NCBI GenBank assembly: GCA_013823625.1
Contig: PNMM01000001.1
Span: forward strand, 744,001-808,000
Length of the DNA stretch: 64,000 nt
Source of the DNA: Microbacterium sp.
GTDB lineage: Bacteria > Actinomycetota > Actinomycetes > Actinomycetales > Microbacteriaceae
Reading direction: 5' to 3'
A program made the position numbers and the translations under genes. The notes under the pieces were generated by a model, which did not search any database, had not been told where the DNA came from, and saw only the letters and a list, made by a program, of their open reading frames with translations. Positions within the stretch are counted from its first letter, which is position 1. Each line of letters starts with the position of its first letter. Below, piece after piece: positions 37,245 through 41,278 of the stretch.

Positions 37245-38024
37245 ATGAGCCCGATCGATGATGACGAAGTAGCTCTTGTGGCGTTGAGGGCCGCTGATCC
37301 GGCCGGCAACGTCGTGGCGGACGCAGCAACACGCCGATCGGCGGTTCGAGCCGCGATGGCGAGCTCGAACAATCGAAGCCGTTGGTCGAAGACCTGGGCA
37401 GTCATCATTGTGGCCATTGGCGCCGCTGTGGTGATTCCCGTTGGTGCGTCGGCAACTGGCTTCGCCGCTTTCACGGGCTGGTTCGGCTCACCAAACCCCC
37501 CGGAGACGGTGATCGAAGAGAGCGGCTCCACAAGAAGCAGCTCTGAGGCAGACAGTTCTGAGTGGCTAGACGTTCTGTCTGACGACTTCATCGAGGCAGC
37601 TACGCAACTGATGCCGCCATACATAACTTTGCCCGAGGGGACTGATCGGCAGCAGTTTGCACGAGTTGTCGCAGAGAGCATGCGCAACGCGACTGTGACG
37701 GGGCCTGACGCAGAGACTGTCGGCGAGTTCGGTGCTCTCATGCAGACCACGGGAGTTGTTGCGACCTACGAGCTTCACGCGCAATGCGCTTGGCGAGCGG
37801 AGTGGATTGACGCGTTCGACAACTCCGAACAGCAGCGAACAGAGCTGGCAACTCAAGCGCTCACTAACTCGGCCACCTGGCCTGCCACCGTTGCCACCGA
37901 TGGGGGTGGTGTGGTCGCCAACGAACAGCGACTTGCAGCGGCCGCTGAAGCTGGCGACCGAACGACGGTTGCAACCGAGGGGCTTCGCAACTGCCCCGCC
38001 GTGGCGTTTTCGGCAGGTCGATGA
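37245..38024 (+). CDS. Single-pass membrane protein paired with a sigma factor
   Basis: A 259-residue protein that I do not recognise as a named family. Residues 1-50 are cytosolic (MSPIDDDEVALVALRAADPA), one membrane helix spans about 51-75, and the rest is extracytoplasmic with three cysteines (two in the last quarter). GGAGG lies before the ATG. Its stop overlaps the start of the sigma-factor gene by 4 bases (ATGA), so the two are coupled. The layout resembles an anti-sigma or sensor partner, but no zinc-binding anti-sigma motif (HxxxCxxC) is visible. Confidence 0.75.
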   Translation: MSPIDDDEVALVALRAADPAGNVVADAATRRSAVRAAMASSNNRSRWSKTWAVIIVAIGAAVVIPVGASATGFAAFTGWFGSPNPPETVIEESGSTRSSSEADSSEWLDVLSDDFIEAATQLMPPYITLPEGTDRQQFARVVAESMRNATVTGPDAETVGEFGALMQTTGVVATYELHAQCAWRAEWIDAFDNSEQQRTELATQALTNSATWPATVATDGGGVVANEQRLAAAAEAGDRTTVATEGLRNCPAVAFSAGR

Positions 38025-38566
38025 CATTGCGGCAGGAGATCAACTTCTTTGCTGGAGACCGCTCCCAGGAGTCGGCGGAACAGGCTGGTCGATTCGAAAC
38101 GATGGTTGACCCCCTCGTTCCGCTGATTCTGCGCTACTTCGTTCGCCGACTCGACAACCGCGACGATGCGGCCGACTGCACCGCTGAGACACTGCTTGTC
38201 TTGTGGAGGCGCCGGGCCAAACTGCCGCCAGAGCCCGATGAGCTTCGCGCCTGGAGTTACGGCGTGGCTCGGCTTGTTCTGGCGAACCATCAACGCGGCA
38301 AGAGGCGGCGTGCGGCCGTCGACCACAGTCTTCGGCAGGCCCTTCGCGTTCAGAACCCGCCCCCTCCCGACGAAGCGATCCTTGCCGTGGAAGCCCTCAA
38401 GTCGCTGCGTGGAGCCGATCAGGAGTTGCTGAGGCTGGTCGTCTGGGAACAACTCAGCGTGGCCGACGCAGGCCGCGTTCTGGGAATCACCCCAGGCGCC
38501 GCTCGAACCAGATACTCGCGAGCGCTCGGAAGGCTCAGACATCGTTTCGCCGCGATCAATGAATGA
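38021..38566 (+). CDS. ECF-type RNA polymerase sigma factor
   Basis: A 181-residue sigma-70 family protein with only regions 2 and 4. Region 2 includes RYFVRRLDNRDDAADCTAET (core and -10 contacts) and SYGVARLVLANHQRGKRRR. Region 4 has DQELLRLVVWEQLSVADAG and a helix-turn-helix VLGITPGAARTRYSRALGRL. It lacks the C-terminal extension of ECF41/42 types. It is translationally coupled to the upstream membrane protein. Target promoters are unknown. Confidence 0.88.
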   Translation: MTLRQEINFFAGDRSQESAEQAGRFETMVDPLVPLILRYFVRRLDNRDDAADCTAETLLVLWRRRAKLPPEPDELRAWSYGVARLVLANHQRGKRRRAAVDHSLRQALRVQNPPPPDEAILAVEALKSLRGADQELLRLVVWEQLSVADAGRVLGITPGAARTRYSRALGRLRHRFAAINE

Positions 38567-39183: not shown

Positions 39184-39717
39184 CTACAGAGCGAGGGAGT
39201 CGCCCGAGGCTGCGCCGCGACGATACGAACTGCCGTCGGCCTCACGACCAAGAAACCCCGCATCGACGAGATAGCGCCGAACAGTCACGGGGTCGTCGGT
39301 GAGCAGCTCGAGGCGCTCGGTGATCGTGCGCTCGTCGACGAGCTCAGCCGGCTCGGGCATCGCGCGGTCGATGAGGTACTGAAGTACCGCCATGCGGTCG
39401 TCAACGCCCGCGGGGTACTGCTCGAGCCGACCGTCGACCACGAATCGATCGATGCCCGTAGGGCGCTCGACCGGCGCCGTGGCGAGCAACTCGGCGAATC
39501 GTTCGGCGCGCAGTCGCAGCGCGTCGCCAGAGCTATCGAGCAGCCCCGCGTCGCTGAGCACGCGCACGACACGCTCGCGGCGCTTGAGGGGGAGTGAGGC
39601 GAGATACTCCGAGGCGTCGAGCTCGGCGAGCAGCAGCCCGAGCACGCGCCGACTCTCCGGGTTGGCGAGCGCCGCGATCGCGCCTCGCCACGCGTTGGGG
39701 TCACTGCTCTTCGGCAT
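39184..39717 (-). CDS. DUF2087-domain protein
   Basis: A 177-residue cytosolic protein. The N-terminal half resembles a winged-helix (LANPESRRVLGLLLAELD ... RVVRVLSDAGLLDSSG). The C-terminal half matches DUF2087: DRMAVLQYLIDRAMPEPAELVDERTITERL and VTVRRYLVDAGFLGREADGSSYRRG in two consecutive pieces. DUF2087 domains usually occur fused to regulators of the ArsR or MarR kind, so a regulatory role is likely (inference). Confidence 0.82.
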   Translation of the reverse strand: MPKSSDPNAWRGAIAALANPESRRVLGLLLAELDASEYLASLPLKRRERVVRVLSDAGLLDSSGDALRLRAERFAELLATAPVERPTGIDRFVVDGRLEQYPAGVDDRMAVLQYLIDRAMPEPAELVDERTITERLELLTDDPVTVRRYLVDAGFLGREADGSSYRRGAASGDSLAL

Positions 39718-39816
39718 GCCTAGAACCTATCGACGGGGGATGCCCGAGCCGACGCCATCCGAGACGCTCAGTGCGAGCATCCGTCGCTCACCCTCACTCG
39801 ATCTGACATAATGTGG

Positions 39817-39844
39817 ATTATCAGAGTATGGAACAAGGTGCAAA
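39817..39844 (-). promoter_or_regulatory. Candidate promoter for the DUF2087 gene
   Basis: On the minus strand, TTTGCA (39844-39839) and GATAAT (39822-39817) are 16 bases apart. A transcript would begin near 39810, about 90 bases before the start codon. The -10 box is part of a small inverted repeat ATAAT-GTGG-ATTAT. The rest of the gene-free stretch 39718-40050 shows nothing else recognisable. Confidence 0.4.
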
Positions 39845-40050
39845 ACGGTGCGGATCTGCCGAGTTGTGCGGTGAGAACCAACTCTCGTCGCGTATACGGC
39901 CATCGAGCGCGTCGCCGCACGTGACGCCTGCATTGGGCGTGAGCACCGATTTCTAGCGAAACATAAGCGCCCCGTTGGCCATTTCTGTGGACTTGCTGAG
40001 AGGTGCACATTTCGCCCACCCCGTAAACATGCAATCTGGTTCACTAGTGA

Positions 40051-40151
40051 CCGGAGGGGAGTATCCCCGCTTGCGTTGCGTCGTCACTACGATCCGGTCA
40101 CACTGATCCGGCGCCACGGGCCGACACTGTTCGGCTGGGAAAGACCTCCTG
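40051..40151 (+). ncRNA. yybP-ykoY manganese riboswitch
   Basis: The segment carries the conserved marks of the yybP-ykoY class: GGGGAGTA at the 5' side (40056-40063), TCGTCACTACG (40081-40091), the GGGCCGACACTG internal block (about 40118-40129), and AAGACCTCC at the 3' side (40141-40149). The closing stem pairs GGAGG (40053-40057) with CCTCC (40145-40149). This class binds Mn2+ and commonly precedes TerC-type and other metal exporters, as it does here. Coordinates are read by eye and may be off by a few bases at each end. Confidence 0.87.
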
Positions 40152-40176
40152 AATCGCTCTCACGACCTTTCAGGAG
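40146..40176 (+). promoter_or_regulatory. RBS-sequestering hairpin (riboswitch expression platform)
   Basis: CTCCTGAA (40146-40153) and TTCAGGAG (40169-40176) form a perfect 8-bp inverted repeat. The right arm contains the ribosome binding site AGGAG, 7 bases before the terC ATG. The left arm overlaps the strand that closes the aptamer stem. The two pairings exclude each other, so ligand binding would free the ribosome binding site. Confidence 0.75.
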
Positions 40177-40183
40177 TTCTCCC

Positions 40184-41278
40184 ATGGATGTCCCCCTCTG
40201 GCTCTGGATCGCCGTTCTCGGCGTGATCTTGCTCATGCTGGCGATCGACTTGTTCGCCCACCGAAAAGCGCACGTCATCGGCGTGCGTGAGGCCGCCATC
40301 TGGTCGGGCATCTGGGTCACGCTGGGCATCGCGTTCGGTGGCTATATCTGGTGGGAGTACGGCGCCGAGTTCGGTCAGCAGTACTACGCCGGCTACTTGA
40401 TTGAAAAGTCACTTGCCGTTGACAACGTCTTCGTGTGGGCGATCATCTTCGCCTTCTTCGGGGTCCCCCGTGAGTTCCAACACCGGGTGCTCTTCCTGGG
40501 TGTTATCGGAGCCCTCGTCTTCCGTGCGATCTTCATCGCGCTCGGCGCGGTGCTGATCGACCAGTTCTCCTGGATCCTCTACGTGTTCGCCGCGTTCTTG
40601 CTCTACACGGGCTACGTGATGATTCGTAAGCGCAACGAACACATGGATGTCGCCAACTCGAAGATTCTCAAGCTCTTCAAGCGATTCGTGCCGATGACCG
40701 ACGCGTACCACGGGCAGAAGTTCCTCATCCGCAAGGCGGGCGTGATCGTTGCCACTCCCCTGCTTGCCGTGCTCGTGCTGGTCGAGGTCACCGACATCGT
40801 GTTTGCTGTCGACTCGATCCCGGCCATCTTCGGCGTCACGAGCGAGCCGTTCATCGTGTTCACGGCTAACGCCTTCGCAATCTTGGGCCTGCGCGCCATG
40901 TACTTCTTGCTCGCTGATCTGATGCACCGCTTCATCTACCTCAAGCTGGGTCTGGCGTTCGTGCTTATCTGGGTGGGCATCAAGATGCTGCTGCTCGATG
41001 TCTACAAGATCCCGACGAGCGTCTCGCTCGGTGTCGTCGCGCTCATCATCACGATCTCGGTCGTGACCAGTCTGCGGGCGACCCGCGGCGAAGGCCGACA
41101 CGCTGTCGAGGTCAAGAACGCTCCCCCGTTCCGCATTGCGACCGAGCAAGAGATGGCCGAGGCCGAGCCCCTGTGGCGTCGCCCCGCGAGCCGTCGTCGC
41201 AACCAGGTGTCCCCCGTGCAGGGTGACGAGCCCCGTGATCCGGATGCTGCGACCGAGCGCAGCGTTCGAAACGAGTAG
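40184..41278 (+). CDS. TerC-family integral membrane protein (probable Mn2+ exporter)
   Basis: A 364-residue TerC-family transporter with about nine membrane helices. The acidic family motifs are visible: SLAVDNVFVWAIIFAFFGVP and EVTDIVFAVDSIPAIFGVT. The C-terminal cytoplasmic tail (from about 300) is charged. The ATG at 40184 is fixed by AGGAG 7 bases upstream; the frame is open further but would run through the riboswitch. A Mn2+-sensing riboswitch in the leader supports manganese export as the function. A strong hairpin follows the stop. Confidence 0.93.
   Translation: MDVPLWLWIAVLGVILLMLAIDLFAHRKAHVIGVREAAIWSGIWVTLGIAFGGYIWWEYGAEFGQQYYAGYLIEKSLAVDNVFVWAIIFAFFGVPREFQHRVLFLGVIGALVFRAIFIALGAVLIDQFSWILYVFAAFLLYTGYVMIRKRNEHMDVANSKILKLFKRFVPMTDAYHGQKFLIRKAGVIVATPLLAVLVLVEVTDIVFAVDSIPAIFGVTSEPFIVFTANAFAILGLRAMYFLLADLMHRFIYLKLGLAFVLIWVGIKMLLLDVYKIPTSVSLGVVALIITISVVTSLRATRGEGRHAVEVKNAPPFRIATEQEMAEAEPLWRRPASRRRNQVSPVQGDEPRDPDAATERSVRNE

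Follow-up and report, generated by a model that had tools for sequence, protein, structure and literature searches.

A putative manganese-responsive terC riboswitch of Actinomycetota with a three-way junction and a ribosome-binding-site decoy

The stretch of DNA described here, referred to as the window, comprises 64,000 nucleotides of contig PNMM01000001.1 from the actinobacterium Microbacterium sp. On its + strand, to which all coordinates refer unless stated otherwise, it contains the gene terC at 40184..41278, which encodes a protein of 364 amino acids (PF03741, E 1.3e-53); many orthologues align from residue 1 when the ATG at 40184 is taken as the start codon. The subject of this article is the 5' leader of this gene. 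It is highly probable that 40053-40176 constitute a Mn2+-responsive switch that turns translation on, and, judged from the comparison of related sequences, the leader is very probably a variant of the yybP-ykoY (Mn2+) riboswitch that forms a three-way junction and does without helix P2.

The whole aptamer spans 40053..40150 and corresponds to positions 1-95 of R1, a covariance model of the aptamer only that was built from an alignment of relatives (A1, see below). It scores 81.3 bits with R1, which is so by construction, as the sequence of the window is itself among the 55 rows of the model. The aptamer is closed by P1.1, in which GGAGG (40053..40057, strand A) forms 5/5 pairs with CCUCC (40145..40149, strand B). 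The stretch GGGGAGUA, which includes the L1 motif, occupies 40056..40063 and is found in 55/55 rows of A1. It is followed by the 5' strand of P1, UCCC (40064..40067), whose partner is the 3' strand GGGA (40137..40140). Between these strands lie P3, with the L3 motif GUCGUCA and a terminal hairpin (40076..40116), and the hairpin P4 (40119..40136), which rests on the consensus fold and on covariation. In P3, 2/14 model pairs are non-standard in the window (40077/40115 and 40095/40104). Strand B is common to two competing helices, the second being the OFF hairpin. Its 5' arm CUCCUGAA (40146..40153, CTCCTGAA in DNA letters) forms 8/8 pairs with its 3' arm UUCAGGAG (40169..40176, TTCAGGAG in DNA letters; strand C). 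The 3' arm contains the ribosome binding site AGGAG (40172-40176), which lies 7 nucleotides before the ATG, and strand A is identical in sequence to the core of this site. An earlier note, made from the sequence of this DNA alone, had described a closing stem that needs CCTCC at 40145-40149, a perfect 8-base-pair complement overlapping it and an AGGAG located 7 bases before the ATG of a TerC gene. All three descriptions are exact, and the PF03741 match confirms the gene.

These elements suggest the following course of regulation. At low Mn2+, CUCCUGAA (40146-40153) would pair with UUCAGGAG (40169-40176), and the ribosome binding site would be hidden. Binding of Mn2+ between L1 (GGGGAGUA) and L3 (GUCGUCA) would close the aptamer; the P1.1 strand GGAGG (40053-40057) would then capture CCUCC, the ribosome binding site would become free, and TerC could be made. 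The 5' strand of P1.1 would herein serve as a ribosome-binding-site decoy, with two strands of equal sequence contending for a single complement.

TerC homologues were gathered from 60 related genomes (59 matched, and the loci of the best 30 were taken) and from a genome collection (80 loci of 97). The organism names of the closest matches place the genome near Microcella (Microbacteriaceae). Among the resulting 110 terC loci, 94 carry the pattern GGGGAGTA...GACC upstream of terC, and 16 lack it; 4 of these 16 are cut at contig ends, in one, L031, R1 gives a diverged aptamer directly upstream, and in two, L054 and L056, R1 gives one farther away (see below). The 94 patterned leaders reduce to 80 distinct aptamers and 79 distinct leaders, duplicates arising from overlap between the related genomes and public contigs, and 55 aligned rows, picked by the L1 motif, make up A1. 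Its consensus fold consists of P1.1, P1, P3 with the L3 motif, and P4. At least one compensatory change, altering both sides of a pair, occurs in 22/27 pairs among the 55 leaders, and P1 shows such changes in 4/4 pairs among relatives. P1 and P3 are joined by 5-11 nucleotides in 77/79 leaders measured (L027 and L029 lack the pattern), and this segment folds in none; hence, the aptamer is assigned a three-way junction.

A second alignment, A2, holds 88 distinct matches picked by R1. It is fitted to the R1 structure and shares at least three rows with the training set; read with this limit, 24/27 pairs are changed on both sides, 92.4% of paired cells are filled by pairs versus 69.3% after shuffling and 53% after sliding by one column, and the covariation score is 0.583 versus 0.194 shuffled and at most 0.108 slid. 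A second aptamer occurs in the same genome (G000 C3:90257-90352, equal to L114:1501-1596; 73.3 bits, E 4e-16 with R1), 27 nucleotides before the start codon of another terC. R1 also matches the leader of Escherichia coli mntP with 21.3 bits and a rough E of 0.0034, in the same place as the match of the Rfam model RF00080. Two groups of terC loci stand apart. In the Pseudonocardia loci L054 (1103-1217) and L056 (1148-1262), the aptamer lies ~1.7-1.8 kb upstream of terC, before another gene; the frame behind the distant aptamer of L056 has no Pfam match. In the Nocardia and Gordonia orthologues L087, L088, L092, L094, L096, L101, and L102, neither the pattern nor R1 found an aptamer, and several of these loci carry, by eye, repeated GCGAA/TTCGC-like palindromes before terC that resemble repressor operators.

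The competition between the two helices was assessed in each leader by the best uninterrupted helix that the 3' strand of P1.1 can form with sequence preceding the start codon; swapping partners among leaders served as the control. For the 79 distinct terC leaders, the mean helix energy is -12.6 kcal/mol, versus -6.8 kcal/mol (standard deviation 0.37) in 60 shuffles. As related leaders are not independent, they were collapsed to one leader per distinct 10-nucleotide arm, which is a partial remedy only; the 32 remaining leaders give -11.7 versus -6.2 kcal/mol (standard deviation 0.53), and 0/1000 shuffles are as low. A second set of 84 leaders, comprising the 89 R1 matches minus three known in the model and two cut short, yields -11.05 versus -6.69 kcal/mol (0/500 shuffles) and, for its 49 distinct arms, -9.96 versus -5.40 kcal/mol (0/500 shuffles). 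Outside the binding-site core, the pairs of the OFF hairpin vary with compensation: the pair next to CCUCC is TA in 6, GC in 13, AT in 7, and CG in 2 of 28 arms. The outermost first pair is broken in 8/28 arms, and pairing fades from the eighth position. A switch helix of at least 6 base pairs is present in 75/79 leaders, and by a softer measure at least 3 nucleotides of the best binding-site hexamer fall within its 3' arm in 65/79. The compensatory changes that the earlier note had proposed to look for in the 8-base-pair hairpin are therefore present among relatives, as the shuffles indicate.

The strongest evidence for competing helices comes from reading all three strands together, which was done in the 144/163 leaders that have a helix of at least 6 base pairs. 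Matched sets of strands A/B/C include GGAGG/CCUCC/GGAGG (35 leaders), GAAGG/CCUUC/GAAGG (6), CAAGG/CCUUG/CAAGG (4), CGAGG/CCUCG/CGAGG (2), and AAAGG/CCUUU/AAAGG (2). Among the 65 leaders with a P1.1 other than GGAGG, C equals A in 15, while shuffling gives a mean of 2.9 and a maximum of 8 in 1000. The second terC copy of the same genome belongs to the set CAAGG/CCUUG/CAAGG, so that all three strands differ from those of the window. This covariation ties the aptamer to the ribosome binding site and, together with the shuffle tests, supports the two mutually exclusive pairings that the earlier note had postulated; both the aptamer helix and the site-hiding hairpin are conserved, as a translational ON switch would have it. 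Sequence comparison thus shows how the aptamer folds, that the nucleotides of the metal site are conserved, that the hairpin of the switch exists, and that the three strands covary.

A number of observations weigh against this interpretation. The overlap of the hairpin with the best binding-site hexamer is missing in 14/79 leaders, and the strict pattern, a binding-site core 3-16 nucleotides before the start and inside the hairpin, is seen in only 53/79. The own partner is strictly preferred over those of all other leaders in only 7/32 distinct arms, which is explained by the relatedness of the arms. Strand A differs from strand C in GGAGG/CCUCC/GGAAG (17 leaders) and GAAGG/CCUUC/GGAGG (8), and all five B-C pairs are kept in only 35/65 leaders with a variant P1.1. 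A fold starting at P1.1 favors the OFF state by 12.3 kcal/mol in this leader and by a median of 10 kcal/mol (3.0 to 18.1) over 76 leaders. For L. lactis, four helices, P1-P4, are described, and P2 is absent from the A1 consensus fold. Finally, RF00080 gives no match on the leader (351 bases, E<=10).

As to the class, the leader has the L1 motif closed by P1.1 and P1 (40053-40067 and 40137-40149), L3 with the equivalent of A41, and a TerC target. P2 seems not to be obligatory, because a member with a three-way junction is in print (described in PMC9495176), and the term variant is used for this reason. The missing RF00080 match is weak evidence, because the proven switch of E. coli mntP scores 41.6 bits with the same model and thus falls under its own cut-off of 45 bits. 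On the window, RF00080 (Rfam 15) yields no match at the gathering score (>=45 bits). On the 60 relatives, nothing is found above the cut-off, and the single weak partial match is the R1 motif before a GDT1 gene. At E<=10, RF00080 falls on the motif in 2 of 14 relatives' loci, each time below the threshold: L073 (28.6 bits, E 5e-4, model positions 45-86) and L030 (14.5 bits, E 7.6). The failure of RF00080 reflects the detection threshold rather than biology. The earlier note had assigned the class and had held that a missing covariance-model hit would speak against it. RF00080 indeed gives none, so that this part of the assignment is not borne out; the part that stands rests on the comparison within the lineage and on the match of the lineage-built R1 to mntP.

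Both models were also run, under strict filters that make either count a lower bound, on 246 sampled genomes of the phylum. R1 matches in 58 genomes, of which at least three (G000, G037, and G053) had given rows to R1, and further overlap with the public contigs in A1 is possible. RF00080 matches in 8 genomes, in one of them above the cut-off, and only G172 is common to both sets. The ordinary RF00080 type hence also occurs in the phylum and is missed by R1.

The first genes behind the 89 R1 matches were picked automatically, and a few assignments are uncertain. Herein, 43 are TerC-like by BLAST. A family of 19 was tested in three members, all of them GDT1 divalent cation/proton antiporters (PF01169); in each of two further families, of 10 and 6 genes, two members were tested and are P-type ATPases and Na/Ca exchangers, respectively. 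Thus, 78/89 matches precede genes of these four kinds. Among the others, two belong to a family with one tested member, an M48 peptidase, one is an M50 peptidase, two are alike with no Pfam match for the one tested, and three are single cases. Three matches have no frame behind them; two of these lie where a contig ends, and in the third a frame resembling a P-type ATPase is seen by eye ~500 nucleotides farther on. Peptidase genes directly behind the aptamer, in L171 and L172 (M48, HtpX-like) and in L134 (M50), with L171 and L134 tested, are unexpected for the class. In L175, purC was considered as an unusual target and is not claimed, a P-type-ATPase-like frame following purC by eye. MneA is a GDT1/UPF0016 protein, and yoaB encodes a P-type ATPase. 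In Vibrio, mneA and terC are described as adjoining a manganese-sensing switch (PMC13274385).

Control could also be transcriptional, in that the downstream hairpin, or Rho acting on untranslated mRNA, halts transcription at low Mn2+. Rho is described to act at the E. coli mntP leader (PMC11647493), and in the low-GC relatives L175 (101-1693) and L142 (1-1592) the aptamer is followed by U-rich hairpins that are terminator-like by eye. In the window, however, no terminator-like site is found on the + strand in 39720-40300, and the 3' arm of the hairpin holds the ribosome binding site, ends 7 nucleotides before the start codon, and has no U run after it. This explanation is therefore judged unlikely, and translation is the probable level of control. 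A conserved promoter just before the aptamer was sought as well; the offsets of TAnnnT (-10) and TTGAC (-35) scatter, with at most 5/79 at any offset, and no promoter is claimed. Upstream of the leader, the window contains a divergent gene with a DUF2087 domain (39184-39717, - strand) and, farther upstream, a gene for a sigma-70-like factor (38021-38566, + strand).

The choice of Mn2+ as the presumed ligand follows mainly from the gene context together with the conserved metal site. In Lactococcus lactis, Mn2+ is described as contacting the phosphates of G9, U39, C40, U44, and C45 and N7 of the invariable A41 (PMC9190785). Transferred by motif, these contacts correspond to 40059 (G9), 40084 (U39), 40085 (C40), 40086 (A41), 40089 (U44), and 40090 (C45). 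The letters of L3 are given as UCA41AU43UC for L. lactis and as ACA48U49ACU52 for Xanthomonas oryzae (PMC6754395); the window reads UCACUAC at 40084-40090 and is of the L. lactis type. In A1, the equivalents of A41, G9, U39, C40, and C45 are each kept in 55/55 rows, and position 44 is variable. The 55/55 of A1 is slightly flattering, because the wider set of 80 distinct aptamers varies: 74 have UCGNCA-NNN-CG, 4 have UCGNCA only, and 2 have neither, with position 39 being U in 73, A in 3, and C in 2. In A2, the A41 equivalent is kept in 87/88 rows with one gap and G9 in 82/88, and each of the eight letters of GGGGAGUA is kept in 82 to 88 of 88.

Positions 39 and 45 of A2 are linked, with U/C in 68, A/U in 19, and A/C in 1. 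The 20 rows with A39 comprise every one of the 19 GDT1 leaders and only 1 of the 69 others, which belongs to a Na/Ca exchanger; U45 occurs in 19/20 of them. A39/U45 is the X. oryzae type, which is also recognized by eye in E. coli mntP (GUCAACAUACU), and U39/C45 is the L. lactis type. Each of the two loop types has precedents in Mn2+ sensors; what is new is that they sort by gene family.

The same fold might answer to another or an additional signal, such as pH or a divalent ion like Ca2+. Alkaline pH is described to favor Mn binding to the mntP switch (PMC11647493). For the three-way aptamer of Streptococcus pneumoniae mgtA, the affinity for Ca2+ is given as higher than that for Mn2+, yet Mn2+ activates more in vitro (PMC9495176). 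Ca2+ thus stays in consideration, as the actinobacterial form likewise has a three-way junction and some of its target genes encode Na/Ca exchangers or GDT1 antiporters. On the other side, the Mn-coordinating adenine is kept in 55/55 and 87/88 rows, and the members from L. lactis, X. oryzae, and E. coli are described as sensing Mn2+, so that a different signal seems quite unlikely. For the terC leader, Mn2+ thus remains the probable ligand. The earlier note had spoken of manganese export, which goes too far, as a role of TerC proteins in the metalation of exported enzymes is described as well (PMC10550928).

Folding energies were calculated with nearest-neighbor parameters, which exclude metal and tertiary contacts. 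The free fold has -59.4 kcal/mol with the ribosome binding site paired, and the fold with the aptamer forced has -41.6 kcal/mol; under this constraint, the probability that 40171-40176 are unpaired goes up from 0-0.005 to 0.04-0.56. Of the 79 leaders, 3 were dropped from the energy test for being too long or having a P1.1 of fewer than 4 pairs. When P1.1 is forced, the probability of being unpaired, averaged over the binding-site arm, rises from 0.01 to 0.28 in this leader; over all leaders its median goes from 0.02 to 0.465, and it increases in 72/76. The comparison of constrained and free folding proposed in the earlier note thus turns out in favor of exposure of the binding site by the aptamer. 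The OFF hairpin is the predicted resting state. A switch at equilibrium would have to pay the energy gap of the OFF state; hence, the choice between ON and OFF is probably made while the RNA is transcribed. In L. lactis, P1.1 is described to form next to the polymerase (PMC11087558). The free fold also contains a helix 40047-40055/40093-40101, which would sequester part of the aptamer; it was set aside, because most of the relatives compared have other letters ahead of the aptamer.

The advantage of OFF by about 10 kcal/mol would also suit a hairpin that merely damps translation constitutively, with the aptamer decayed or acting alone. In that case, the joint change of strands A, B, and C and the strong structural constraint on the aptamer would be unexpected, which makes such an arrangement very unlikely. 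Chance complementarity, suggested by the fact that CCUCC always complements a binding-site core, can be dismissed as negligible, since partner swaps keep that core yet fall short of the observed pairing.

Among known systems, E. coli mntP (RF00080) resembles the terC leader in the motifs GGGGAGUA and GUCA, in the layout of P1.1, P1, and P3, and in the manganese gene downstream. It is also described to be switched on by Mn2+ through freeing of the ribosome binding site (PMC11647493). It differs by its own P2-like hairpin between P1 and P3, with 29 nucleotides up to the L3 letters and -4.8 kcal/mol. The yoaB riboswitch of L. lactis (PDB 4Y1I) has the same L3 letters, UCA41nnnC (PMC6754395), and P1.1 is likewise described as its switch helix, with a 3' strand shared with the competing hairpin (PMC11087558). 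In contrast, it possesses P1-P4 and a terminator, whereas the terC leader has no P2 and uses the ribosome binding site as the partner of strand B. S. pneumoniae mgtA is similar, by description only, in its three-way junction and its Mn2+/Ca2+ ATPase target and differs by the described activation of transcription (PMC9495176). A further case is terC (cg2157) of Corynebacterium glutamicum, an actinobacterial terC described with an Rfam-predicted yybP-ykoY leader from RNA-seq (PMC3890552); the difference is that this was an older RF00080 prediction with 49.13 bits and 169 nucleotides (PMC3890552, 2013). The motif as such is reported in >75% of the taxonomic groups examined (PMC3766115).

The ON logic of the earlier note is supported by the comparison of the leaders; its phrase of a complete mechanism claims too much, as we infer both the ligand and the direction. 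Already in print are the class, its ligand, the translational ON logic, and a member with a three-way junction. The open-licence full-text literature contains, in the parts covered, no account of a binding-site decoy or of this actinobacterial form, a weak absence since the founding papers lie outside this scope; to that extent, the lineage-wide scheme with a ribosome-binding-site decoy is new.

On balance, it is fairly probable that a compact three-way Mn2+ riboswitch, mostly unseen by Rfam, runs a cation-efflux regulon across much of Actinomycetota, comprising TerC, GDT1, P-type ATPases, Na/Ca exchangers, and possibly HtpX-like and M50 proteases, with a decoy strand that co-evolves as one of three strands and with two linked sub-types of the metal loop that follow the target gene. 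The result is only mildly surprising; of value are the joint change of three strands, the wide occurrence of a form that has been missed, and the target-sorted sub-types. The standard annotation library misses most instances (58/246 genomes with R1 versus 8/246 with RF00080). Actinobacteria would gain a readable and testable manganese switch, and the three-strand covariation makes its mechanism directly testable by strand swaps. The loop sub-types could tune affinity or metal choice per transporter, and, given that they sort by target gene, one can ask if a single riboswitch class is adjusted to metal exporters of different kinds.
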